A stretch of DNA of 41,592 bases from Acidobacteriota bacterium (lineage in GTDB: Bacteria > Acidobacteriota > Vicinamibacteria > Fen-336), in contig QHVM01000022.1 of the NCBI GenBank assembly GCA_003223555.1, positions 1 to 41,592 of the forward strand, written 5' to 3'. The position numbers and the translations under genes were made by a program. Shown one piece after another: positions 17,055-35,386 of this stretch. Positions within the stretch are counted from its first letter, which is position 1. Every line of letters starts with the position of its first letter. The notes below the pieces were generated by a model. That model ran no database searches. It saw only the letters and a list, made by a program, of their open reading frames with translations, and was not told the DNA's origin.

Positions 17055-17605
17055 CGGTGTCCATCCTCAAGGTGGCCCGCATCGGCCACCCCGTCGTCCG
17101 GACGGCCGCCCAGCCGGTCCCCGCAGCGGAGATCGCCTCTCCCGCCTTCCAGCGTCTCGTCGACGACATGGTCGCGACGATGCACGAGTACGAAGGCGTT
17201 GGCCTGGCCGCGCCCCAGGTCCACGTCTCGCTGCGGCTGGCCGTCATCGAGGTCCCGGCCTCGGACGAGCGCAGCATCGAGGCCGTGCCGCTCACGGTGC
17301 TCGTCAACCCGGTCGTGACCCCCGTCGGCGAGGAACGGCTGACGGCGTGGGAGGGTTGCTTGTCGGTGCCCGGCCTGCGGGGGATGGTCCCCCGCTTCGC
17401 GCGCGCCCGGCTCGAAGCGCGCGACCGGGACGGGCGGCCCTACATCGCCGACGCTTCGGGCTTCTTCGCCCGGGTGATCCAGCACGAGTGCGACCACCTC
17501 GACGGCCGTGTCTATCTCGACCGGATGGACGACCTGCGTACCCTCTCCTTCCTCCGCGAGCTCCACCGTTTCGGCCCCGACGCCCACAACGAGGAGGGAA
17601 GCTAG
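17051..17605 (+). CDS. def: Peptide deformylase
   Basis: A 184-residue metalloenzyme that removes the formyl group from nascent protein N-termini. All three signature motifs are present: GVGLAAPQ (about residue 50), EGCLSVPG and QHECDHLDG. The Cys of motif 2 and two His of motif 3 bind the metal, and the Glu is catalytic. GTG 17051 overlaps the preceding stop by 4 nt. The EGCLSVPG spelling is typical of class I enzymes. The C-terminal tail is polar (DAHNEEGS). The gene overlaps the 3' end of the convergent kinase gene by 4 nt. fmt, its usual neighbour, is absent. Confidence 0.95.
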   Translation: MTVSILKVARIGHPVVRTAAQPVPAAEIASPAFQRLVDDMVATMHEYEGVGLAAPQVHVSLRLAVIEVPASDERSIEAVPLTVLVNPVVTPVGEERLTAWEGCLSVPGLRGMVPRFARARLEARDRDGRPYIADASGFFARVIQHECDHLDGRVYLDRMDDLRTLSFLRELHRFGPDAHNEEGS

Positions 17606-20600
17606 GCGGAGCCTGCGCCGGCGGCCGGGCCGCGCCGGGCGGCCGACGACGCGACCGGCCGCGGCACCGGCAGTCGGATCCACAGCTCCAGCCCGCCGAG
17701 CGCGCGGCTCCCGCCGACAAGAGTGCCGCCGAGCTGGGAGACGATCTCGCGCGCAAGGCCCAGGCCCGGGTCCAGATCTCCCGAAGCGATTCTGGTCGCC
17801 CGAGCGGTCGCTCCTTCCCCGTGCCGTACGCCCACCAGCACCTGGTCGTCCTCGACCGCGGTGACGACCTCGATCGTGGCTCCGCCTCCCGCCGCGCGCA
17901 GGTCCACGGCGGCGGCGTCCACGCAGCTCAGCACCGCCTGCCGCAGCGCCGTCACGTTCACCGACAGCGGCGGCACCGCCTCCGAGAGGGATGCCTGCAG
18001 CCGGATGTCCTCTTCGCCGAGGTCCGCCGACCGCTCCCCGATCACCTCCTGCACGGTGAGGTTCACCGAGACGAAGTCGCGCGGGCCGCTCGTCCCGCGC
18101 ATCGCCGCGATCACGTTGCTCGCGAGGCGCAGGCCGGAATCGCCCCGGCGCCGGATCCGCCGCGCATCTTCCCGCGCGCGACCGGGCAGGTCCCGCTGGG
18201 CCAGGAGCAGGCGGGCCAGGGCGGCGATCCCCGAGAGCTGGCCGCCCAGCTCGTAGACCGCGTTCGCCACCAGGCGAGGCAACACCTGCTGGCTCGCGTC
18301 GGCCGCTCCGGTGGCCGCGGAGGCCCCGACGCCTCGATCCCGCGCCAGCTCCCGCAGCGCCAGCAGCGCTCCCAGCGCCACCACCGCGAAGGCCGTCAGG
18401 TCGTCGCGGGCCGCGTCGAGCGCCGGATGTCCGGACGAGCCGACGAGCGCGTCGAAGGCCGGCAACAGCGCCACCGACGCCAGCGAAGCCGCGGCGCCAA
18501 ACGGGAACGGGCGGTAGCTCGCAAAGTGGGGCTCGGGCCGCCAGCGGCGCCGGCTCTCCGCCAGGGCCACCGCGGCCAGGAGCAGGTAGGGCACGATCCA
18601 ACCCAGGTCGGCGGGCGTCCCCCCCGCGAAGCCCGTGACGGTGCGCCCGTAATCCGCCGCGGTCTGGCCCGCCGCCCACGCCACGAACACGAGCGCCAGG
18701 CGGCCGAAGGCGATCCGCCAATGTCCCGAGGCGACCCTCCGGGACAGCACGAAGGCCCACAGCGCGAGCGCGGCCCGCACGAGCCCGCGCCCGAGCGCAA
18801 CGTGCTGGCCGAGAACGGCCTCACCCTCGCTGAAAGGCCAGGGCAACACCACCAGGTACATGTAGAAGTAGGCGAAGCAGCACAAGGCCGCACCCGCGCC
18901 CAGCAGGGAGCGCGCCGACGCGCCCCGCTCGGGCTTGAGGTCGGGCCGCAGGAGGAGCGCCGCCGCCCAGGCGAGCTCCCCCGCCGCGGAGACCAGGTAG
19001 GCCCAAACCCCGCTTGGACGAGAGCCCTCCAGGGCCCCCAGGCCCAGCATCCGGGCGACGGCCCAGAGCGCCGGGCCGGCGGCCAGGAGCAGCCAGAACC
19101 GCCGCGCGCGCCCCCGGTGGCGAAGGCCGGCCGCAGCCAGCGCGGCGGCCGCCAGCAGCGCCGCGCCGACCTGGAACTGGAACGCCCACCACGCGCGGCC
19201 GGCGTTCGGCGACATGAGGGCGAGCGAGGTCGCCATCGCCGCCGAGAGCAGCGCCGCCCCCGAGAGGGCCCAGGCGTCGGGGACCGGCCGCATGGCGCGA
19301 CGCTCCCGGGCCGGAAAGCGGAATACGAAGCAGGCGCCCTCGCCGGACGGCTCGAGCCCTACCGACCCGCCGTGGTCGCGGGCCACGAAGTGGGCCTGGG
19401 TGAGGCCGAGCCCCACTCCTTCGCCCACTCGGCGCGTCGTGAAGAACGGATCGAAGATACGCGGCCGGATCTCGGCCGGGACGCCCGGCCCGTCGTCGCG
19501 GAAGCGGAGCACGACCTCCCGCCCGTCGGTCGCGGCGCCGATCCTCAGCACACCGCCGGGGGAAGCCTGGGCGGCGTTGCGCACGACGCTGAGGAATGCC
19601 GCGCCGAGGGCGCCCGGGTCCCCCATCACCTCCGGGAGCTGACCCGTCCCCTCGAGGCTCACTCGGAGAGGCAGCCCCTCGTCGAGGACGGCGCGGACCG
19701 TGTCTTCCAGGGCGCGGCCGACGTCCACGGGTTGCCGCGACCGGGAGGGCACGAGCCGGAACGCGGCGCTCAGCTCGCGCACGATGCCGCGCGCCCGCTC
19801 GGCCTGATCGACCACCCGCTCCGCCTTGGCTCCCATGAACGGCGCCGCCGAGCGCGCCTGGCGCGCCACCTCGTCGGTCGCCCGTTCCAGCTCCTCCACC
19901 AGGCCGGCGCTGAGGGCGGCGAGCGTGCCCAGCCGACCGGCTCGCCGCGCTGCTTCGTCGGCGGCGCGCTCCCGGGCCTGGGCCTCCTCATCGAGGCGCT
20001 CCTCCACGAGCAGGCGCGCGGCGCAGCCGACGGCGAGGAGCGCCGACGTGACGAGAAGGAGGATCGGCTGCGGAGAGACGGCCAAACCCAGCGAGGGGAG
20101 CGCCCGGCCGAGGACGCGGTCCAGCACCAGCGGGGCCGGACCGGCCGCGAGCACGACCGCCGCGCTCGACAGCCGCCGCGTCACGCGCGCCCGCGGCGTC
20201 GTCGTGGCGGCGGCGAGCAGGAAGAACGGGACGAACCAGCCGGCGTCGGCCGGCCCGCCGGGGGGCAGCATCTCGTGGCCCAGACCGTTGGCGACCGCGC
20301 TGAGCGTGCCGTAGAGCACGGCGAACAGGCAGACCGCGCCGTAGGTCCGGCGCCACCTCGGCTCCTCCACCCGGCGCCAGAGCGTGGCCGTCCAGGCGGC
20401 GAGCGCGAAAGCGAGGCCGCCGAGGACGAAGCTGCGACTGTGCGTCCCTTCGGCGGTGATGAGCGGCAGGAACACGATGCGCAGGAACACGAACGAGAGC
20501 GCGACGAAGACCAGGGCGGTGTCGGCGAGCGCGACCCGGTCGCGCCGGAGGGACCGGGGATGGGGCCGTAGCCCGACCGCTCCGATCATCGGCACCAGGA

Positions 20601-20931
20601 AGCCGATGAAGAAGAGGTCGGTGCCCAGCGGGAAGCCGGTGGCGCGGTCGCCGAAGAACCGCGGCGCTCGGCCCTCGTAATCGGCCAGGGACCAAAGCGC
20701 CTCCCCGGCGAGCCACAGGAGAGGGCCGAGGGCGAGAAGGCGCCAGAACCACTTCGCGCGCCCCGGCTCGCGGCTCGCGCGCAGGAGCCAGCTCAGCGCC
20801 AGGACCGGGGGCGCGAGGAGGAGCAGATCCGTGCGCAGGTCCGCGCCCGGCCCGCGGGCGACCGCGTAATAGAGCGCCGCGAAGGCCGCCGCGCCGAGGG
20901 CCAGACCGCCCGGGGTCGCCCTGGGCCTCAC
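17602..20931 (-). CDS. Tandem-module membrane histidine kinase-like protein with degenerate H-boxes
   Basis: A 1109-residue protein made of two homologous modules, each a multi-helix membrane sensor followed by a kinase-like region. Module A (1-546) has no phosphoacceptor His (LSAGLVEELERA replaces the usual GLAHELNNPL). It does have a complete ATP-binding domain: N-box Asn452 in RNAAQAS, DDGPG (~479), DPFFTTR and GVGLGLTQ. Module B (547-1109) has Tyr893 in place of His (NAVYELGGQL) and a decayed ATP-binding domain without N or G1 boxes, though GLGLAREIVSQLGG survives. GTG 20931 overlaps the upstream kinase stop by 4 nt. An in-frame ATG at 19293 behind GGGAG could also yield module B alone. 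No response regulator is nearby. Confidence 0.82.
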   Translation of the reverse strand: MRPRATPGGLALGAAAFAALYYAVARGPGADLRTDLLLLAPPVLALSWLLRASREPGRAKWFWRLLALGPLLWLAGEALWSLADYEGRAPRFFGDRATGFPLGTDLFFIGFLVPMIGAVGLRPHPRSLRRDRVALADTALVFVALSFVFLRIVFLPLITAEGTHSRSFVLGGLAFALAAWTATLWRRVEEPRWRRTYGAVCLFAVLYGTLSAVANGLGHEMLPPGGPADAGWFVPFFLLAAATTTPRARVTRRLSSAAVVLAAGPAPLVLDRVLGRALPSLGLAVSPQPILLLVTSALLAVGCAARLLVEERLDEEAQARERAADEAARRAGRLGTLAALSAGLVEELERATDEVARQARSAAPFMGAKAERVVDQAERARGIVRELSAAFRLVPSRSRQPVDVGRALEDTVRAVLDEGLPLRVSLEGTGQLPEVMGDPGALGAAFLSVVRNAAQASPGGVLRIGAATDGREVVLRFRDDGPGVPAEIRPRIFDPFFTTRRVGEGVGLGLTQAHFVARDHGGSVGLEPSGEGACFVFRFPARERRAMRPVPDAWALSGAALLSAAMATSLALMSPNAGRAWWAFQFQVGAALLAAAALAAAGLRHRGRARRFWLLLAAGPALWAVARMLGLGALEGSRPSGVWAYLVSAAGELAWAAALLLRPDLKPERGASARSLLGAGAALCCFAYFYMYLVVLPWPFSEGEAVLGQHVALGRGLVRAALALWAFVLSRRVASGHWRIAFGRLALVFVAWAAGQTAADYGRTVTGFAGGTPADLGWIVPYLLLAAVALAESRRRWRPEPHFASYRPFPFGAAASLASVALLPAFDALVGSSGHPALDAARDDLTAFAVVALGALLALRELARDRGVGASAATGAADASQQVLPRLVANAVYELGGQLSGIAALARLLLAQRDLPGRAREDARRIRRRGDSGLRLASNVIAAMRGTSGPRDFVSVNLTVQEVIGERSADLGEEDIRLQASLSEAVPPLSVNVTALRQAVLSCVDAAAVDLRAAGGGATIEVVTAVEDDQVLVGVRHGEGATARATRIASGDLDPGLGLAREIVSQLGGTLVGGSRALGGLELWIRLPVPRPVASSAARRGPAAGAGSA

Positions 20932-22169
20932 CGCGGCTCCCCCGCGCTGCGCCCGCTGCGGACGAGCTGTTGCAAGCGACCCACCGCTGCCGCCGCCGTG
21001 CCAGTCGCCTCCACCAGGGGTTGCAACGACGGCTCGGGTCCGCCACGCCTCAGCGCCAGCTCCGCCCATCCGGCCACGGCCATCAGCGGGTTGTTGAGCT
21101 CGTGGGCCAGCCCGGAAGCGAACTGGAGGTACTCCGACGCCTCGGCGAGGGGCGGTCGCCCTCCGGCCGGCTCGGCCGCGTCGTGTGCTGCGGACGGCCG
21201 GCCTGTCTGGTACACACGAAGGGCCACGAGCAGCGACAGCACGGAGGAGCAGGCCAGGGTGAGATCGGTCCGTGCCTCGGCCAGCGAAGGCTGCACTCCG
21301 GCCGCGCGGCTGGCCAGGTCGATGAGAGGAGGCACGGCCAGGGCCAGCACCGCCAGCCGCGCCCGGCCGCGGTCGCCGACCGCCGGACGGCGCGAACCCA
21401 CCCAGGCCGGACCGCGTGGGCCGAGGGCCGCGGCGGCGATCGAGAAGAAAGGCAACAGGGAGGCCAGGTCCCACGGGCCATGGGCCTCGTGCTGGCCCTG
21501 GGCGTAGAGCCAGCGAGGCCAGGCGCCGAGGACGGCCCCGGCGCAGAAACCGAGGGCCAGCAGGCCGTAGACCCGGCGGAACGGCGGATCCTTGACGCGG
21601 AACGCAAGGGCGAGGGCCCACAGCCCCGGAAGCGCAGCCGGGGCCGTGACGGCCAGGAACCAGGGATCGCCCGCCGCCCCCGGCGGCCGCATCGCGCAGT
21701 ACGCCACCAGGAAGTACCCGCCGACTGCCGCCACCACCCACTCCAGGACCGCCGAGCGGACTTCGTGCGGAGCCCGCGGGCGGTCGGGGCGGACGAGGAG
21801 GGCCACCAGGAGGAAGACGACGAGGGTCTCGTCGCCGAGGTGGGCGGCGCCGCGCAGCCGCGCGGCGGCCGGCCAGACGGCCGGGAGGGCGAGGAGCATC
21901 TCGGCGGCGGCGTAGGCGGTCGAGGCGCTGCCGAGGAGGAGCCAGAACGCCTTCTCCGACCCGCGCGAGCTGCGGGCGGCGTGGGCGGCCGCCAGGGCGG
22001 CGAGGGCGGGAGGCCCGAAGAGCGCGAGATGACCGAGGACGGCGCGGACCGGCGCCGATGCCGGCCGGGGCAGCAGGAGAAGGGCGGCGAGATGGAGGAG
22101 GCCGTACGCGACCCCCGCCGCCAGCACCTTGCCGGGGGTGAACGCGTGGGCTAGGCTATCTCGCTTCAT
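20928..22169 (-). CDS. Membrane sensor with histidine phosphoacceptor (HisKA) domain but no ATPase domain
   Basis: A 413-residue protein. Many hydrophobic helices (about 10-310) are followed by one intact H-box, SGLAHELNNPLMAVAGWAEL, with phosphoacceptor His356, and a second helix. The protein stops 57 residues later, before any HATPase domain. Its sensor is homologous to both modules of the next gene; compare GSEKAFWLLLG here with GRAKWFWRLLA and GRARRFWLLLA there. Coupled by GTGA, the pair would supply His and ATPase on separate chains. ATG 22169 shares the palindrome CATG with the divergent ThyX-like start. GTG 22205 is an alternative that would overlap more. Confidence 0.82.
   Translation of the reverse strand: MKRDSLAHAFTPGKVLAAGVAYGLLHLAALLLLPRPASAPVRAVLGHLALFGPPALAALAAAHAARSSRGSEKAFWLLLGSASTAYAAAEMLLALPAVWPAAARLRGAAHLGDETLVVFLLVALLVRPDRPRAPHEVRSAVLEWVVAAVGGYFLVAYCAMRPPGAAGDPWFLAVTAPAALPGLWALALAFRVKDPPFRRVYGLLALGFCAGAVLGAWPRWLYAQGQHEAHGPWDLASLLPFFSIAAAALGPRGPAWVGSRRPAVGDRGRARLAVLALAVPPLIDLASRAAGVQPSLAEARTDLTLACSSVLSLLVALRVYQTGRPSAAHDAAEPAGGRPPLAEASEYLQFASGLAHELNNPLMAVAGWAELALRRGGPEPSLQPLVEATGTAAAAVGRLQQLVRSGRSAGEPR
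22129..22157 (+). promoter_or_regulatory. Candidate promoter of the ThyX-like gene
   Basis: TTGCCG (22129-22134), a 17-bp spacer and TAGGCT (22152-22157), ending 10 nt before ATG 22168. It lies inside the first codons of the divergent sensor gene. The transcript would be nearly leaderless. TAGGCT also occurs at 8228-8233 and 31645-31650 before other starts. Confidence 0.5.
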
Positions 22170-23715
22170 GGCCGACCGCGTCCGCACCGGGCCTCCCGTC
22201 GTCACCCTGAGGAACGCCTTCTCCCGGCCCTACGACGGCGCGATCGCGGCGGCCCGAACGTGCTACTCGCCCCGCGTCGTGACCGCGGAAGAGGTGACCC
22301 CCGGCCAGCGCGAGTCGATCGGCCCGCTCACCTTCGCGGCCGGCCATCACACGGTCTACCAGCACGCCCACTTCGAGTTCGGGCTCGAGAACGTGAGCCG
22401 CCAATTCGTGTGGTCGTTCCTGCATTCGCACCCGTTCTACAACTCGGAGCAGTCCAGCCAGCGCTTCGTGCGCCTGGACGAGGTCTCGGCCTTCGTTCCG
22501 GAGGGACTGGGACCGACGGCCCGCGAGGTCTACGAAGAGGGAATCGCCGCCGCGTGGGCGGCGTACCGGAGTCTCTCACAGATCCTGAAGGAAGACACGG
22601 CAAAAATCCTGGGCGACCTGCGGCACCTCGGCCCGGGGGCGTCCGAGAAGCGCCGCAAGAAGGTCGCGCGGGAAGCCGAGAAGAAGGCCATCGAGCTGGC
22701 GCGCTACGTGATCCCGGTGGCGGCCTTCACTTCAATGGTCCACACGGTGTCGGGGATCGTCCTCCACCGGCTGCACCGCATGATGCGCACCGGCGACGCC
22801 CCGGCCGAGAGCGCGCGCGTCGTCACGGCCATGGTCGCCAGAGTCAGCGAGGTCGATCCCGGCTTCTTCGAGCGGGTGGGCGAGGCTCCCCTGGCCGCCG
22901 GCGACGTGGTGGAGTCGCGGCTGCCCCGGATGGAGACAGGGGGGGACGGCATCGCCGCCCGCATCGACGGCCTCCTCGGCGCCCGCACGTCCCTCCTGGT
23001 GGACTACACGGCCCGGGGAGAGGAGACGACCGCGGAAGCGGTGCGCACCGTGCTCGGAGCCGCTCCGGAGACCCTGCCGGACGAGGACGCCCTGGAGCGG
23101 GTGCTGAACCCGGGCCTGAACCGCTACCGGCTGGAGACGCTCCAGCTCTCGGTGCATTCGCCGATGACCCGCTCGCTCCATCACGCCACCTATACCTTCC
23201 TGAAGCGGCTCTCCCACACCGCCGACAGCCAGGACCAACGCCACCGCATGGTGCCCGCCTCCCGGCCCCTCATGACCCTCGCCGACACCCGGCGGCCCGA
23301 CTACGTGACCCCCCCCCTCATCGCCGCCAACCCGCGGGCCCACGAGGTCTACGCGGCGGCGATGGAGCAGGCATGGGCGGCCAAGAACCGGCTCCTCGAC
23401 ATGGGGGTGCCCCTCGAATCGGCCCTCTACCTGCTCCCCAACGCCAAGGCGCTGCGCTTCCACGAGACGGGCAGCCTGCTCTACCTCGCCCACAAGTGGG
23501 TGATGCGCACCTGCTTCAACGCGCAGGAGGAGATCTATCGGGCCTCGATGGATGAGCTGGAGCAGCTTCGCGCCCTCCACCCGCGCCTCGCCCGCCACAT
23601 GGGGCCGCCGTGCGTGCTTCGCGCCGGCCGGGCCAGCCCCACCTGCACCGAGGGGGAGCACTTCTGCGGCGTGCCGGTCTGGCGCAGCTTCCCGCACGTT
23701 GAGCGCCGGATCTGA
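22168..23715 (+). CDS. Double-length ThyX-like (FAD-dependent thymidylate synthase family) protein
   Basis: A 515-residue protein, about twice the normal ThyX length, reading as two ThyX-type halves. The first half has the family N-terminus (TLRNAFSRPYDGAIAAARTCYS), then GHHTVYQHAHFEFGLENVSRQF and HPFYNSEQSSQRFV where ThyX has its RHRxxSxNxxSxRY motif. The second half has YRLETLQLSVHSPMTRSLHH and LSHTADSQDQRHRMVPASRP. In both halves the RHR signature is altered, so dTMP synthesis from dUMP is doubtful. Ordinary ThyX may be encoded elsewhere. ATG 22168 gives the standard N-terminus. The DprE1-like gene starts 5 nt after the stop, which suggests one operon. Confidence 0.8.
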   Translation: MADRVRTGPPVVTLRNAFSRPYDGAIAAARTCYSPRVVTAEEVTPGQRESIGPLTFAAGHHTVYQHAHFEFGLENVSRQFVWSFLHSHPFYNSEQSSQRFVRLDEVSAFVPEGLGPTAREVYEEGIAAAWAAYRSLSQILKEDTAKILGDLRHLGPGASEKRRKKVAREAEKKAIELARYVIPVAAFTSMVHTVSGIVLHRLHRMMRTGDAPAESARVVTAMVARVSEVDPGFFERVGEAPLAAGDVVESRLPRMETGGDGIAARIDGLLGARTSLLVDYTARGEETTAEAVRTVLGAAPETLPDEDALERVLNPGLNRYRLETLQLSVHSPMTRSLHHATYTFLKRLSHTADSQDQRHRMVPASRPLMTLADTRRPDYVTPPLIAANPRAHEVYAAAMEQAWAAKNRLLDMGVPLESALYLLPNAKALRFHETGSLLYLAHKWVMRTCFNAQEEIYRASMDELEQLRALHPRLARHMGPPCVLRAGRASPTCTEGEHFCGVPVWRSFPHVERRI

Positions 23716-26558: not shown

Positions 26559-27143
26559 CTAGGCGTGGGCCGCGGGCAACAGCCTCTGCAGCGCCCGGTG
26601 GGTCGGCCAGTAGACCACGCCGGCCAGGAAGGCGAAGGTCAGGGCGAGATGGACGGGGGCCGGGCCCCAAGCGCGATGGAAGAACGGATCGCGAAAGGCG
26701 AAGTTCAGGTTCTCCCCGGGCAGCACGAAGCGCGAGGCCACCAGGACGACCGCCGCGATGGCCGACTGGAGGGCGAAGCCTCGCCGGTCGTAGCCGAGGC
26801 GGCGGAGCGTCAAGACGAGAAGCGGCGGCCAGGCCACGTGGAAGAGCGACATCAGGCGCACCCACAGCGGATAGCGCGGGTCCCACATGTACTCGGTGCC
26901 CCCGATGAGGTGACGGCCGAGGGCGAGCCGCCAGACGAGATCGAGGTCCCAGGTGATATCGACGACGAGAGACGACACGGCCTGGCTGGAGAGGAGCAGC
27001 GCGCTGCCCCGCATGATCGCGAGGCAGGTCAGGATGACGGCGATGTCGCAGAGGCGGACGAAGTTCGCCGCTCCGTAGACCCACGCATAGACCGAAACGA
27101 AAGTGACGAGCCAGAGCGCAGCGCCGACTCTCAGCAGCTTCAA
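26559..27143 (-). CDS. Unknown membrane protein translationally coupled to hpnE
   Basis: A 194-residue protein with about five or six hydrophobic segments (for example LWLVTFVSVYAWVYGAANFV, AIAAVVLVASRFVL and HLALTFAFLAGVVYW). A loop is rich in aromatic and charged residues (WDLDLVWRLALGRHLIGGTEYMWDPRYPLW). The start is a TTG at 27143 that overlaps the hpnE stop by 4 nt (TTGA), with GGAGG four bases before it. Coupling to the squalene genes suggests a hopanoid-linked role, but I do not recognise the family and no catalytic motif is evident. Confidence 0.7.
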   Translation of the reverse strand: MKLLRVGAALWLVTFVSVYAWVYGAANFVRLCDIAVILTCLAIMRGSALLLSSQAVSSLVVDITWDLDLVWRLALGRHLIGGTEYMWDPRYPLWVRLMSLFHVAWPPLLVLTLRRLGYDRRGFALQSAIAAVVLVASRFVLPGENLNFAFRDPFFHRAWGPAPVHLALTFAFLAGVVYWPTHRALQRLLPAAHA

Positions 27144-28492
27144 CCGGCCTCCGCCGCCCGCGCGGCCGCCAGGCCGCTGCGCACCGCCCCTTCGATCGTG
27201 GCGGGCAGGCCGGTGGCGGTCCAGTCACCCGCCAGGTAGAGCCCGCGCAGCGGCGTGACCGGCCCCGGCCGCAGCGCTTCTGCCTCGGGATCGGACGCGA
27301 AGGTCGCGTCGGCCTCGCGCAGCACCAGCGACCGGGTGACCGTCGCCTTGGCCATCGCCGGGAAGTAACGCCGCAAGGAGGCTTCCGCCGACGCGGCCAG
27401 CTCCTGGTTCGAACGTTCCGCGCTGCGGCGGGCGGCGCTCACGATGAAGGCCAGGTGCTGGGGCGGGCCCTCCCGGCCGTAGATCGCCCCCTTGTCGAAC
27501 ACCCACTCCATCTCCGAGTCCCGCAGTCCCACCATCGCCCGGTCGACGACGACGCGGTCCAGCCACATCTCGACCGAGACGATGGGCGAGCCGCCCAGGC
27601 GGGACAGGCCGGCGAAGGGAGGCTGGGCCGGCCAGGGCTCGGGCAAGAGTCCGGGGGCGGCGTTCCAGGGGACGGCCGCCACGACGGCGTCGGCCTCCAG
27701 GAAGCCCTGGACACCCGGCTTGCCCCGCCGGATGTCCTCTCGCGTCTCGGATCGCTGGGTATAGCGCACGCCGCTCGCCCGGCCGCTCGTAAGAACGACC
27801 TCCTCCGCCAGCGCCCGCCGCCGCAGCACCCCGCCGCGGTGCTGGAAGTAGCGGGCCATCCGCTCGTGCAGCTCCGCAAAGCCGCGGCGGAGGAAGACCA
27901 GGCGGGAGGCCTCCCGCCGGGTGAGGAACGCCTCGCGGTAGACGTTGTAGAAGAGGATGGCCGCCGCCCGCTCCGGGGCCTCGTTGAGGATGGCGGTGGC
28001 GAGCGGGTCCCAGAGCAGCCGGCGCGCCTCCCGTCCCTGGCCGGCTCGGCGCAAGTACTCGGCCAGCGTCAGGCCGAGGGGTGGCTGGCCGTAGCGCACG
28101 GCCAGCCACAGGCGCAGCGCCTGCCAGCGGACGACCCAGGGCAGCTTCAGGCCGAGCAGGCCGCCGATCAGGTGCAGGGGGGCGGCGAGCGGCGGGCAGT
28201 CGAGGGAAGACCGACCCCGGTCGTCGACGTAATCGATGTGGAGGTCGTCCTGGAAGAGCAGCAGGTCCTCCGCCCCCGCCCGCCGGACCAGATCGAACGT
28301 GGCCGCGTACGCTCCCACCATCAGGTGCGTGCCGTTGTCGACGTCCTCGCCGGAGACGGCGTCGCGGTAGGAGGTCGCCCGGCCGCCGAGCACGCCCCGG
28401 CGCTCCAGCAGCGTCACCTGGTGGCGGCGCTCCTGGAGGTCGATGGCCGTGGCGAGGCCGGCGAAGCCGGCGCCGATGACGACGGCCTTCAT
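27140..28492 (-). CDS. hpnE: Hydroxysqualene dehydroxylase (squalene-associated FAD-dependent desaturase)
   Basis: A 450-residue flavoprotein of the amine-oxidase/phytoene-desaturase superfamily. The N-terminal dinucleotide motif is VVIGAGFAGLATAIDL, followed by GGRATSYRD. VDNGTHLMVGAY is characteristic of HpnE. The C-terminal FAD motif is LYLAGDWTATGLPATIEGAVRSG. HpnE reduces hydroxysqualene to squalene, the last of the three HpnCDE steps. ATG 28492 overlaps the hpnD stop (ATGA). An ATG-less extension to 28531 is proline-rich and unlikely. The gene is coupled at both ends, so it sits inside one operon. Confidence 0.93.
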   Translation of the reverse strand: MKAVVIGAGFAGLATAIDLQERRHQVTLLERRGVLGGRATSYRDAVSGEDVDNGTHLMVGAYAATFDLVRRAGAEDLLLFQDDLHIDYVDDRGRSSLDCPPLAAPLHLIGGLLGLKLPWVVRWQALRLWLAVRYGQPPLGLTLAEYLRRAGQGREARRLLWDPLATAILNEAPERAAAILFYNVYREAFLTRREASRLVFLRRGFAELHERMARYFQHRGGVLRRRALAEEVVLTSGRASGVRYTQRSETREDIRRGKPGVQGFLEADAVVAAVPWNAAPGLLPEPWPAQPPFAGLSRLGGSPIVSVEMWLDRVVVDRAMVGLRDSEMEWVFDKGAIYGREGPPQHLAFIVSAARRSAERSNQELAASAEASLRRYFPAMAKATVTRSLVLREADATFASDPEAEALRPGPVTPLRGLYLAGDWTATGLPATIEGAVRSGLAAARAAEAG

Positions 28493-29325
28493 GGGCGGCG
28501 GGAGCGGAGGAGGGTGCGCAGCGCGATCCACGCCTTGCGGGTGCGGGAAAGGCTCACGCGGCCGTCGGGCGGGTATCCGCGGCGGGCGATCTCGTCGAGC
28601 AGCGCGGCATAGACCGCGGCCATGATCTCGGCCGGCGTCATGGCCTTCCGGTCCACGGCCGGGAGCAGCGAGCGCGCGCGCTCATAGTGGTGGCGAGCGC
28701 GCTCGGCCTGGAAGGCCAGGAGCTCGTGGATCGCGGGGGAGCAACGCTGCCCCCGGGCGGCGCACAACAGCTCGGCTTCGGCGACGCCGAACCGCGCCAG
28801 ATCCTCGGCCGGGAGGTAGATGCGGTCCCGGGCCGCGTCTCCGGCGACGTCGCGCAGGATGTTCGTGAGCTGGAGCGCCACCCCCAGCTCCACCGCGTAC
28901 TCGCGCGTGCCCGGGTCCGCGTACCCGAACACCTCGATCGCGGCCAGGCCCACCGCCGACGCGACCCGCTCGCAGTAGACGCGCAGGTCGGCGAAGGTGG
29001 GGTAGCGCTTCGTGGTGAGGTCCATGCGGCAGCCGGCCACGATGTCCTCGAAGCAGCCGCGGGGGATCGGGAACTCGAAGAGCGCCTCCGCCAGGTCGCG
29101 CCCCAGCTCGGTCGACGGCCGGCCGGCGTAGCACCGGCGGACCTCGTCCAGCCAGCGCCGGAGTCCCGCCTCGCCTTCGCCTCCCGGCTCGTCGACGCAG
29201 TCGTCCACCATCCGGCAGAAGGAGTAGAGCGCGTAGATGGCCCGGCGCTTGCGCGCGGGCAGGATGCGGAAGGCGTAGTAGAAGCTGGTGCCGCTCTGCC
29301 GCGTGAGGCGGGCGGAGAGCGACAT
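28489..29325 (-). CDS. hpnD: Presqualene diphosphate synthase
   Basis: A 278-residue trans-isoprenyl diphosphate synthase (squalene/phytoene synthase fold) that condenses two farnesyl diphosphates. Aspartate-rich motif 1 is Asp41-Glu46 (DDCVDE). The second region is QLTNILRDVAGDAARDRIYLP, and YCERVASAVG lies between them. Its position between hpnC and hpnE and the AFRILPARKRRAIYALYSFCR N-terminus favour HpnD over CrtB phytoene synthase. It is 3 nt from hpnC and overlaps hpnE by 4 nt. Confidence 0.93.
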   Translation of the reverse strand: MSLSARLTRQSGTSFYYAFRILPARKRRAIYALYSFCRMVDDCVDEPGGEGEAGLRRWLDEVRRCYAGRPSTELGRDLAEALFEFPIPRGCFEDIVAGCRMDLTTKRYPTFADLRVYCERVASAVGLAAIEVFGYADPGTREYAVELGVALQLTNILRDVAGDAARDRIYLPAEDLARFGVAEAELLCAARGQRCSPAIHELLAFQAERARHHYERARSLLPAVDRKAMTPAEIMAAVYAALLDEIARRGYPPDGRVSLSRTRKAWIALRTLLRSRRP

Positions 29326-29328
29326 GGG

Positions 29329-30192
29329 TCAGGCTCGCGCGGGCCGCCAGCGCCAGGCGCGCCAGGCCAGGCCCAGCTTGCCGGCGACGCCGTGGCGGGG
29401 CCGCCGGCGAAAGACGTCGTAGCCCGCGGCCTCAATGAGGTCGAGGACGGCGCTGCCCCCCAGCCAGGTGAGGCGCAGCTCGAAGCGCAGGTCGGGACCG
29501 ACCCGGTCGCAGAGGGCGCGGCCGCGGGCGAACAGCTCGCGGGTGCGTGCGAGCAGCTCCGCCATCAGGCCGCGGAAGCCGTCGCTGACCAGCGACGCGT
29601 TGAGGTCCCACTCCTTCACCGAGAAGCGGTCGAGCAGCTCCCGGGGCACGTAGATCCGTCCCCGGTGCAGGTCCACGGCCAGGTCCTGCCAGTGGTTGGC
29701 CAGCTGGAGGGCGGTGCAAAGCGCGTCGGACAGCGGGGCCAGCGACGGGTCGCGGTAGCCGAAGACGAGCAGCAGCAGCCGGCCCACGGGGTCGGCCGAC
29801 CGCCGGCAGTAATCGAGCAGCTCATCCCACGTCTCGTAGCGCTGCTTCACGGTGTCCTGCCGGAAGGCGGACAGGAGGTCCAGGAGCAGCTGCCGGGGGA
29901 TGTCGAGCCGGTGCACCGTCTCGGCCAGCGCCACGAAGATGGGGTCCTCGGCCTCGCCGCGGTAGGCGGCGTGGAGCCGCTCTTCCCACTGGTCGAGCTT
30001 CTCCTGCCGCATCCCCTCGTACATCGGCTCGTCGGCGAAGTCGTCGGCGGCGCGGGCGAAGGCGTACAGGGCGTGAATGTAGGGCCGCTTGTCCCTCGGC
30101 ACCCACCGCCCGACCGGGAAGTTCTCGTAGTGGCTGCGCACGCGGGCCTCGCAGTGAGCGAAGGCCTCCTCGGCGGTGAGGGCAGCCGCCAT
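29329..30192 (-). CDS. hpnC: Hydroxysqualene synthase (HpnC)
   Basis: A 287-residue squalene/phytoene synthase-fold enzyme. In the HpnCDE route it converts presqualene diphosphate to hydroxysqualene. SHYENFPVGRWVPRDKRPYIHALYAFARAADDFADE is the HpnC-type N-terminus, including Asp-rich motif 1. The second motif is LANHWQDLAVDLHRGRIYVP, where HpnC has WQD rather than the NILRD of HpnD. It is the first gene of the hpnC-hpnD-hpnE operon. Squalene-hopene cyclase (shc) is not in the window, so the cells may use squalene for hopanoids made by a distant cyclase. Confidence 0.93.
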   Translation of the reverse strand: MAAALTAEEAFAHCEARVRSHYENFPVGRWVPRDKRPYIHALYAFARAADDFADEPMYEGMRQEKLDQWEERLHAAYRGEAEDPIFVALAETVHRLDIPRQLLLDLLSAFRQDTVKQRYETWDELLDYCRRSADPVGRLLLLVFGYRDPSLAPLSDALCTALQLANHWQDLAVDLHRGRIYVPRELLDRFSVKEWDLNASLVSDGFRGLMAELLARTRELFARGRALCDRVGPDLRFELRLTWLGGSAVLDLIEAAGYDVFRRRPRHGVAGKLGLAWRAWRWRPARA

Positions 30193-33589: not shown

Positions 33590-35386
33590 TCACCTCCTGA
33601 AAGCCTCCCAGGCCAGGTCCACCTCCAGCCTCGTGGTCTCCCTGGGGCGGACGGTGACCCTCTTCTGGAAGGGCTTGTAGCCCGGATGCGAGAAGACGAC
33701 GGTATGCACGCCCGCGTCGAGCGGCAGGGGACGGAAGGGAGTCGTGCCGACGGAGACCCCGTCGACCGTGACGTCCGCCCAGGGGTGGACGACGAGCTGA
33801 AGGACGCCGGTCAGGGCGGGCGGAGGTGACGGGCTGGAGACAGCGGCCCGGGCGGGCGGCGGCGGGGGCGGGGCCACTGCGGTCGCCGAGCGGGCCGGCG
33901 AGGCCGAAACCGGCGCTGACGTCCGCGGGACGGCTCCGCTCCCTGCCTGCGGGCGGCCGGCCGGTGCGGTATTCGCGGCCTTCATCGCGCCCGTCGAAGC
34001 GGTGCGATCCGTGAGCGCAGGGAGCGGAGACGGCTCTTCGCTCGTTGGAGGCACGCCATGCACGCCCGCGATTCCGGGCGACAGGCTGGTCGGGACCGCT
34101 CTTGCGGCTGGGGAGCGCTCGGCGCGAGAGACGGCTGATGGCCACAGCCGAATGGCCGCCAGCACGCTCCCGACCGCGACCAGCACGGCGCCGAAGGCGA
34201 GCCATCCTCGAATGGCGACGGTCGGGCGCCCGGCCGCCGCGGGTCGCGCCAGGGCGGGTTCACCGGCCTTGTCGAGGAGGCGCTCGCTGCCTGCGGTCGG
34301 TGGCGGGGGCGGCGATGGTCTGGTTGGAAGATCGAAAGAGGTCGCATCTCCCACGACGGCCTGGCCCCAGGTCGTGGCGGCCGGCGGCGTGCGCAACGTC
34401 TCCTGGAGCGCCTCGACCGGGACGACGGTGGCGGCCAGCGCGGAGGCGGAAGCCGTGGCTCCGGGCTCGGCGGCCGATTGCGCCCGGGCTCGGCGCAGGT
34501 CGCCGGCCAGGTCCTCCGTCGTCGCGTAGCGGTCGGCCGGGTCCTTGGCCAGCGCCTTGCGTAGCACCATGACCAGCGGCGCCGGGATCCCCTCGTCCTC
34601 GCGGGCGTCGAGGGGAGGGGGATCCTGGAGGTGCTTGAGCAGCGTGGCCACCGGCGTGTCGCCGTGAAAGGGCACCCGCCCGGTGAAGATCTCGAAGATG
34701 ACGATCCCCAGGGCATAGATGTCGGTGCGCGGATCGAGCGGCTGGCTCCGGGCCTGCTCCGGGCTCATGTACTCGGGCGTGCCGAGGATGTGCCCGGTGC
34801 CGGTGGCGCCAGCGGTCGCCTCGACGCCGAGCTGCTTGGCGATCCCGAAGTCCATGAGGCGCACACGGCCTCGTCCGTCCCGCATGACGTTGGCGGTCTT
34901 GAGGTCCCGGTGGATGATGCCGACCTCGTGGATGGCGCGCAGGCCCTCGGCGAGCTGGATGGCGACCTCGTAGGCCTCCTCCGGCGAAAGCGCCCCGCTG
35001 CTCTGGACGATCTGCTTCAGGTCGGTCCCCTCGATGAGCTCCATCGAGATGTAGCGCAGGTCGCGGTCCTCTCCGTACTCGTGGATGCCGCAGACGTTGG
35101 GATGGCGCACCCGCCGCGCGAGCTTGATCTCGGAGCGGAAGCGACGGGCCATCTCCGGCGAGCCGGCGATCTCCGGCCGCAGTATCTTCAGCGCGACCGT
35201 CTCCTCGAGCACGCGGTCGTAGGCCTTGTAGACCGTGCCCATGCCGCCGCTGCCGAGACGCTCGCGGACCTCGTAGCGGGCGTCCACCAGCGCCCCGCGC
35301 CGGATGATCGCGGTGAAGGGATGGCCGCAGCTGAAGCAGGCCGCGGCCTGCGCATCGTTCTCTTCCCGGCACGAGGGACAGATCAC
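33590..35386 (-). CDS. Membrane Ser/Thr protein kinase with zinc ribbon and PEGA domain
   Basis: A 598-residue Hanks-type kinase. Residues 3-20 form a CPSC/CFSC zinc ribbon. The kinase domain (~38-300) has the Gly-loop GSGGMG (45-50), ATP-binding Lys67 (VALKIL), catalytic HRDLKTANV with Asp161, DFG 179-181 and the GTPEYMSPE activation-loop end. All key residues are present, so it should be active. A membrane helix near 395-415 separates it from a long Pro/Ala/Ser linker and a C-terminal PEGA domain (~528-590: VTVDGVSVGTTPFRPLPLDAGVHTVVFSHPGY), which would be extracytoplasmic. GTG 35386 follows GAGAGG. It is the first gene of a two-gene operon. Confidence 0.93.
   Translation of the reverse strand: MICPSCREENDAQAAACFSCGHPFTAIIRRGALVDARYEVRERLGSGGMGTVYKAYDRVLEETVALKILRPEIAGSPEMARRFRSEIKLARRVRHPNVCGIHEYGEDRDLRYISMELIEGTDLKQIVQSSGALSPEEAYEVAIQLAEGLRAIHEVGIIHRDLKTANVMRDGRGRVRLMDFGIAKQLGVEATAGATGTGHILGTPEYMSPEQARSQPLDPRTDIYALGIVIFEIFTGRVPFHGDTPVATLLKHLQDPPPLDAREDEGIPAPLVMVLRKALAKDPADRYATTEDLAGDLRRARAQSAAEPGATASASALAATVVPVEALQETLRTPPAATTWGQAVVGDATSFDLPTRPSPPPPPTAGSERLLDKAGEPALARPAAAGRPTVAIRGWLAFGAVLVAVGSVLAAIRLWPSAVSRAERSPAARAVPTSLSPGIAGVHGVPPTSEEPSPLPALTDRTASTGAMKAANTAPAGRPQAGSGAVPRTSAPVSASPARSATAVAPPPPPPARAAVSSPSPPPALTGVLQLVVHPWADVTVDGVSVGTTPFRPLPLDAGVHTVVFSHPGYKPFQKRVTVRPRETTRLEVDLAWEAFRR

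Follow-up and report, generated by a model that had tools for sequence, protein, structure and literature searches.

Split histidine kinases, such as CheA3/CheA4, are already known; what is new in the locus described here is a membrane form with three sensors, of which nature provides split, fused and minimal versions. In Mycobacterium tuberculosis, the adjacent genes Rv0600c and Rv0601c encode a split HisKA-type kinase, the ATP-binding part and the His part being carried by separate proteins, and the pair adjoins its own regulator gene, tcrA. Both Rv0600c and Rv0601c cooperate with TcrA (PMC9274095). In Rhodobacter sphaeroides, neither CheA3 nor CheA4 autophosphorylates alone, while their mixture does, and free CheA3 is the better phosphatase (PMC3591291). 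The two domains of EnvZ also work on separate polypeptides and, according to a database survey, 3.66% of HisKA proteins are devoid of HATPase while 1.7% also keep the phosphatase motif and could be halves of split kinases (PMC3591291). The term split histidine kinase was also applied to Hik36/Hik43 of Synechocystis, both halves of which interact with Rre6 in two-hybrid assays (PMC7656254).

The locus lies on one whole contig (C26, positions 1-41,592, the window) of the draft genome of an uncultured bacterium (G000; 5.39 Mb, 98% complete). It consists of two overlapping genes, HK1 and HK2, whose coordinates, strands and GTGA overlap had been correctly predicted from the sequence. Their features are as follows.

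20928..22169, minus strand: HK1, 413 aa, membrane sensor and His-containing HisKA (DHp), without ATPase (ORF, translation, Pfam)
21180..22127, minus strand: sensor module 1, HK1 residues 15-330, about 10 TM helices (9-10 hydropathy segments; homology to sensors A and B)
20955..21134, minus strand: DHp1 helix pair, with the H-box FASGLAHELNNPLMAV (orthologue alignment)
20928..20931, minus strand: GTGA overlap of the HK1 stop TGA and the HK2 start GTG (sequence)
17602..20931, minus strand: HK2, 1109 aa, two-module partner (ORF; Pfam HATPase, E 4e-22)
19972..20919, minus strand: sensor module A, HK2 residues 5-320, about 10 TM (profile comparison, hydropathy)
19732..19938, minus strand: DHp-A, with Glu346 at the His position (orthologue alignment)
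19297..19623, minus strand: CA-A, complete ATPase domain (Pfam; key residues kept in 4/4 orthologues)
18307..19254, minus strand: sensor module B, HK2 residues 560-875, about 10 TM (profile comparison, hydropathy)
18082..18288, minus strand: DHp-B, with Tyr893 at the His position (orthologue alignment)
17662..18069, minus strand: CA-B, degenerate ATPase (orthologue alignment, AF2 model)

As in CheA3/CheA4, His and ATPase domains are thus found on two proteins, which in Rhodobacter make a kinase only together (PMC3591291). The His protein of that system doubles as a phosphatase (PMC3591291), an activity that the HExxN motif suggests for HK1 also. By contrast, CheA3/CheA4 belong to chemotaxis, have P1 and P3-P5 domains and work with CheY6 and a cluster of cytoplasmic chemoreceptors (PMC3591291), whereas HK1/HK2 are of HisKA type, membrane-integral and made of homologous sensor-kinase modules; indeed, Pfam detected only HisKA and HATPase_c in HK1 and HK2, and no HPt (P1), P3 or CheW-like P5 domain. 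Hik36/Hik43 differ as well, being the two halves of a CheA homologue that belongs to the tax3/pilG cluster, encoded apart in the genome (PMC7656254). Unlike Rv0600c/Rv0601c, HK1/HK2 have three related sensors and no regulator on their contig.

The first protein, HK1, was expected to keep its phosphoacceptor His and to end before any ATPase domain, and both points were borne out: Pfam placed HisKA at residues 349-404 (E 3e-8) and, even at a limit of E 1, detected no HATPase. The phosphoacceptor position is occupied by His356 (codon 21102-21104), within an intact HELNNPL motif; FA(S/T)GxAHELNNPLMAV is kept in the HK1 of 4/4 orthologues, AHELNNPLMAV being invariant. The HE/DxxN/T phosphatase motif, which marks bifunctional split kinases (PMC3591291), is present as HELNN in all four, and HK1 matches in this respect. 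HK1 ends after the DHp helices, and the combination of a DHp with a degenerate CA, as in Spo0B/ChpT, was not found in it. A model of HK1 built from a three-row alignment displayed 10 helices at low confidence (pLDDT 53), which did not suffice for a fold search. HK1 may start at ATG 22169 or alternatively at GTG 22127, which would make the phosphoacceptor residue His342. The HK1 ATG (minus strand) and the thyX ATG (plus strand) share CATG at 22167-22170, and the same sharing is seen in a relative of the same genus (G001). A -10-like TAGGCTATCT lies just upstream of thyX, antisense to HK1 codons 1-8, so that a leaderless thyX and an HK1 start at GTG 22127 are both possible.

Module A of HK2 has the complementary content, in agreement with the prediction of a full ATPase domain without its own His. 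HATPase was found at residues 437-542 (E 4e-22), with intact boxes (N RNAAQA, G1 DDGPGVP, F FDPFFTTR, G2 GEGVGLGL), and 4/4 orthologues keep RNAAQASPGG, DDGPGVP and FDPFF(T/S)TRxVG(E/D)GxGLGL. The His position of DHp-A is never His (E/E/G/Q in G000/G003/G010/G001), and no HisKA was found in HK2 above the Pfam cut-off, the module B helix scoring only E 0.5. Upstream of the HK2 start, GGGGGAG is a possible ribosome-binding site.

Module B had been described as carrying Tyr in place of His and a decayed ATPase. Both hold in G000 (Tyr893), and the N-box Asn has become Asp, the F box is absent and G2 is broken, G1 being absent in G000 and G003. Tyr is not fixed, however: among three orthologues, G000 and G003 have Tyr and G010 has His. 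Module B of G010 indeed combines this His (VHEL) with a partial G1 box, indicating that module B decayed stepwise across genera. The Tyr at the phosphoacceptor position in G000 and G003 recalls the Caulobacter pseudokinase DivL, which, unlike module B, has retained its N, G1, F and G2 boxes (PMC4211667). An AF2 model of DHp-B/CA-B kept the kinase-core fold (pLDDT 79), and its best PDB matches include ZraS, RetS (alone, and bound to the GacS DHp, 7n0e) and DivL (4q20); as AF2 easily reproduces this fold and normal kinases were part of the alignment, the model indicates compatibility, not proof.

The homology of the three sensor modules, also claimed from the sequence, was clearly confirmed. Sensors 1, A and B matched one another with HHalign probabilities of 97.6-98.5% (E 3e-12 to 4e-15), versus at most 13% for controls consisting of reversed profiles and two unrelated membrane proteins, and these controls rule out a chance likeness of hydrophobic segments. 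Each sensor has 8-10 hydropathy segments, mostly 9 or 10. Ten helices, an even number, would place every DHp in the cytoplasm, a location required in HK2 and in the fused protein of G010, in which sensors come after cytosolic domains. Each sensor type forms one clade across genomes (100/99-100); the relations among types 1, A and B were not resolved by this tree, as between tandem duplication and assembly from different kinases. Ordinary kinases of the class (e.g., L038/G066, L042/G156) possess a homologous TM sensor (HHalign 97-99%) and a HELNNPL-type HisKA, but they are single and complete, with HisKA and HATPase, and several have a PAS or receiver domain.

The distribution of the locus was determined by running the HK2 query against 149 relatives and an HK1 profile against genomes of the class (all 193) and of the phylum (396). 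HK2 orthologues were found in 3/149 relatives (G001, G003 and G010), all of the same family, and the HK1 search of the 193 class and 396 phylum genomes gave no orthologue beyond the four family members; the locus is present in 4/193 genomes of the class. Most remaining matches to the HK1 profile were ordinary, complete kinases whose sensor is homologous, and a separate scan of the genome contigs returned generic kinases only, with no further system. The four draft genomes carrying the locus, of which G001, G003 and G010 are quite fragmented, all have it flanked by def and thyX. In G005 and G009, thyX comes right after def with no kinase locus between, and in G012 other genes occupy this position and the locus is absent. 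The locus is therefore either an insertion confined to this family or one that was lost elsewhere, and it is made from a type of sensor kinase that is common in the class.

The orthologues differ in their organization and agree in their partition of functions. The same overlapping pair occurs in G003 (L005), with an ATGA overlap instead of the GTGA found in G000 and G001. In G010 (L006, 1471-6072), one open frame of 1534 aa holds all three modules, module 1 bearing the His and module A, itself His-less, the ATPase, i.e., the same partition. In G001 (L007/L087; L007 884-2313), the overlapping pair is cut to 163 + 312 aa: HK1 lacks about sensor helices 1-8, and HK2 lacks the greater part of sensor A and the whole of module B, while the His protein and the ATPase protein both remain, with two predicted membrane segments each. 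A search of the G001 genome with the HK1 profile showed no second copy of the lost sensor, and, if the assembly is right, this pair may be regarded as a natural minimal split kinase. The prediction had called for a survey of relatives, and His and ATPase lie on separate modules in 4/4 orthologues. An ordinary full-length kinase at this locus, which would have argued for a recent break, was found in none of G001, G003 and G010, which hold two overlapping pairs and one fusion; G005, G009 and G012 lack the locus. A sequencing error or recent break can be excluded: a single-base error cannot explain a partition conserved in four genomes, one of them, G010, fused with the same partition. As related bacteria keep the same division, a functioning sensor made of two proteins, of a known but little-studied kind, seems more likely than a broken gene. 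As judged from these sequences, the invariant feature is the partition of the chemistry between modules, the two-gene split being one state and the fusion another. A ThyX tree did not resolve split versus fused as the ancestral state.

Selection was distributed unevenly over the locus. Between G000 and G001, omega was 0.12 for CA-A, 0.20 for DHp-A and 0.25 for DHp1, compared with 0.12 for thyX, and it reached 0.44-0.49 in stretches including membrane segments and linkers. The parts that a trans kinase needs are thus the constrained ones. The constraint on DHp-A, which has no His, would fit a role as docking or dimerization partner. Between genera, the sensors and module B were the least constrained (pN 0.33-0.48; omega 0.5-1.2), silent sites being near saturation, so that these ratios are only indicative.

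From a mechanistic point of view, we consider it probable that HK1 and HK2 constitute a membrane-embedded split kinase, in which HK1 would give the His and module A the ATPase, with trans-phosphorylation of His356 inside one complex. Gene coupling is seen throughout, as overlapping genes in three genomes and as a fusion in G010, and the natural fusion supports the one-complex reading. HK1 and module A would combine their DHp helices into a mixed bundle at the membrane, where the sensors would report the signal and CA-A would phosphorylate His356 in trans; phosphorylated HK1 would then pass the phosphoryl group to an unlinked response regulator. Free HK1, its HExxN motif being kept, would probably dephosphorylate this regulator. 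The absence of a response regulator nearby had been correctly noted: a six-frame scan detected 92 receiver domains in the G000 genome and none on this contig, in line with Pfam scans of the window genes, and we infer that the partner exists and is unlinked.

Module B may serve as a catalytically dead sensor or dimerization arm. A required role for the structural third arm originally predicted is doubtful at least in G001, where module B is wholly lost and, if the assembly is right, dispensable; it is therefore not universally required. More tentatively, and with somewhat less than even expectation, we propose a three-sensor heteromeric kinase, whose homologous modules would share out the roles of His donor, ATPase donor and dead sensor arm, and whose activity would need several sensors to agree. 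A speculative assembly would have three DHp per HK1:HK2 unit, with DHp1:DHp-A pairs joined by a DHp-B:DHp-B pair.

Other explanations were weighed against trans-phosphorylation. The DHp of HK1 is free-standing and bears the phosphoacceptor His, and all receivers lie elsewhere in the genome, as would also be expected if HK1 were a membrane-bound His phosphotransfer protein, with a Spo0B/ChpT-like DHp, fed by another kinase or receiver, and HK2 a separate regulator of HK1. DHp1 could be phosphorylated by a different kinase. This phosphotransfer scheme as a whole appears unlikely, as it leaves unexplained the invariant CA-A motifs without their own His, the gene coupling and the G010 fusion. An absence of any phosphotransfer, where ATP binding or hydrolysis by module A would change the shape of the complex and HK1 would only bind or dephosphorylate the regulator, has precedents among repurposed histidine kinases, since DivL senses DivK-P (PMC4211667) and RetS binds GacS (PDB 7n0e). 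However, a complete H-box and complete ATP boxes, which are what phosphotransfer needs, are kept on partner proteins across orthologues, and we judge this explanation highly unlikely.

The fast evolution of the sensors and module B, the loss of most sensor helices and of module B in G001 and the absence of the locus from most relatives could alternatively reflect a decaying cluster of duplicated kinases heading for loss, the G001 deletion being a late stage. Yet the reading frames are free of frameshifts and internal stops in all four genomes, purifying selection acts on CA-A, DHp-A and DHp1, and several deletions in G001 left both frames open with the start/stop overlap kept, making such decay very unlikely. 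On the evidence of sequence comparison, the locus thus encodes a real, conserved and most probably functional split histidine kinase.

Few HisKA-type halves have been tied to a partner; here, the partner adjoins, shares ancestry and, from one genus to another, keeps exactly the part that HK1 lacks. With split, fused and minimal orthologues available, the effect of splitting can be tested directly (switch-like, bistable responses are predicted), as can the way in which a kinase module turns into a pure sensor. If the three-sensor reading is true, evolution supplies split, fused and minimal versions of one machine.

Several neighboring genes of the window deserve mention. HK2 and def are convergent, and their stop regions overlap by 4 bases (17602-17605). 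On the other side, the ThyX protein (22168-23715) has 515 aa, about twice the usual ThyX length, with two stretches matching the Thy1 family. An amine oxidase and two consecutive squalene/phytoene synthases (27140-30192) resemble a hopanoid (HpnC/D/E-like) cluster, and a protein encoded at 33590-35386 has a Ser/Thr protein kinase domain, with a PEGA domain at its C-terminus.
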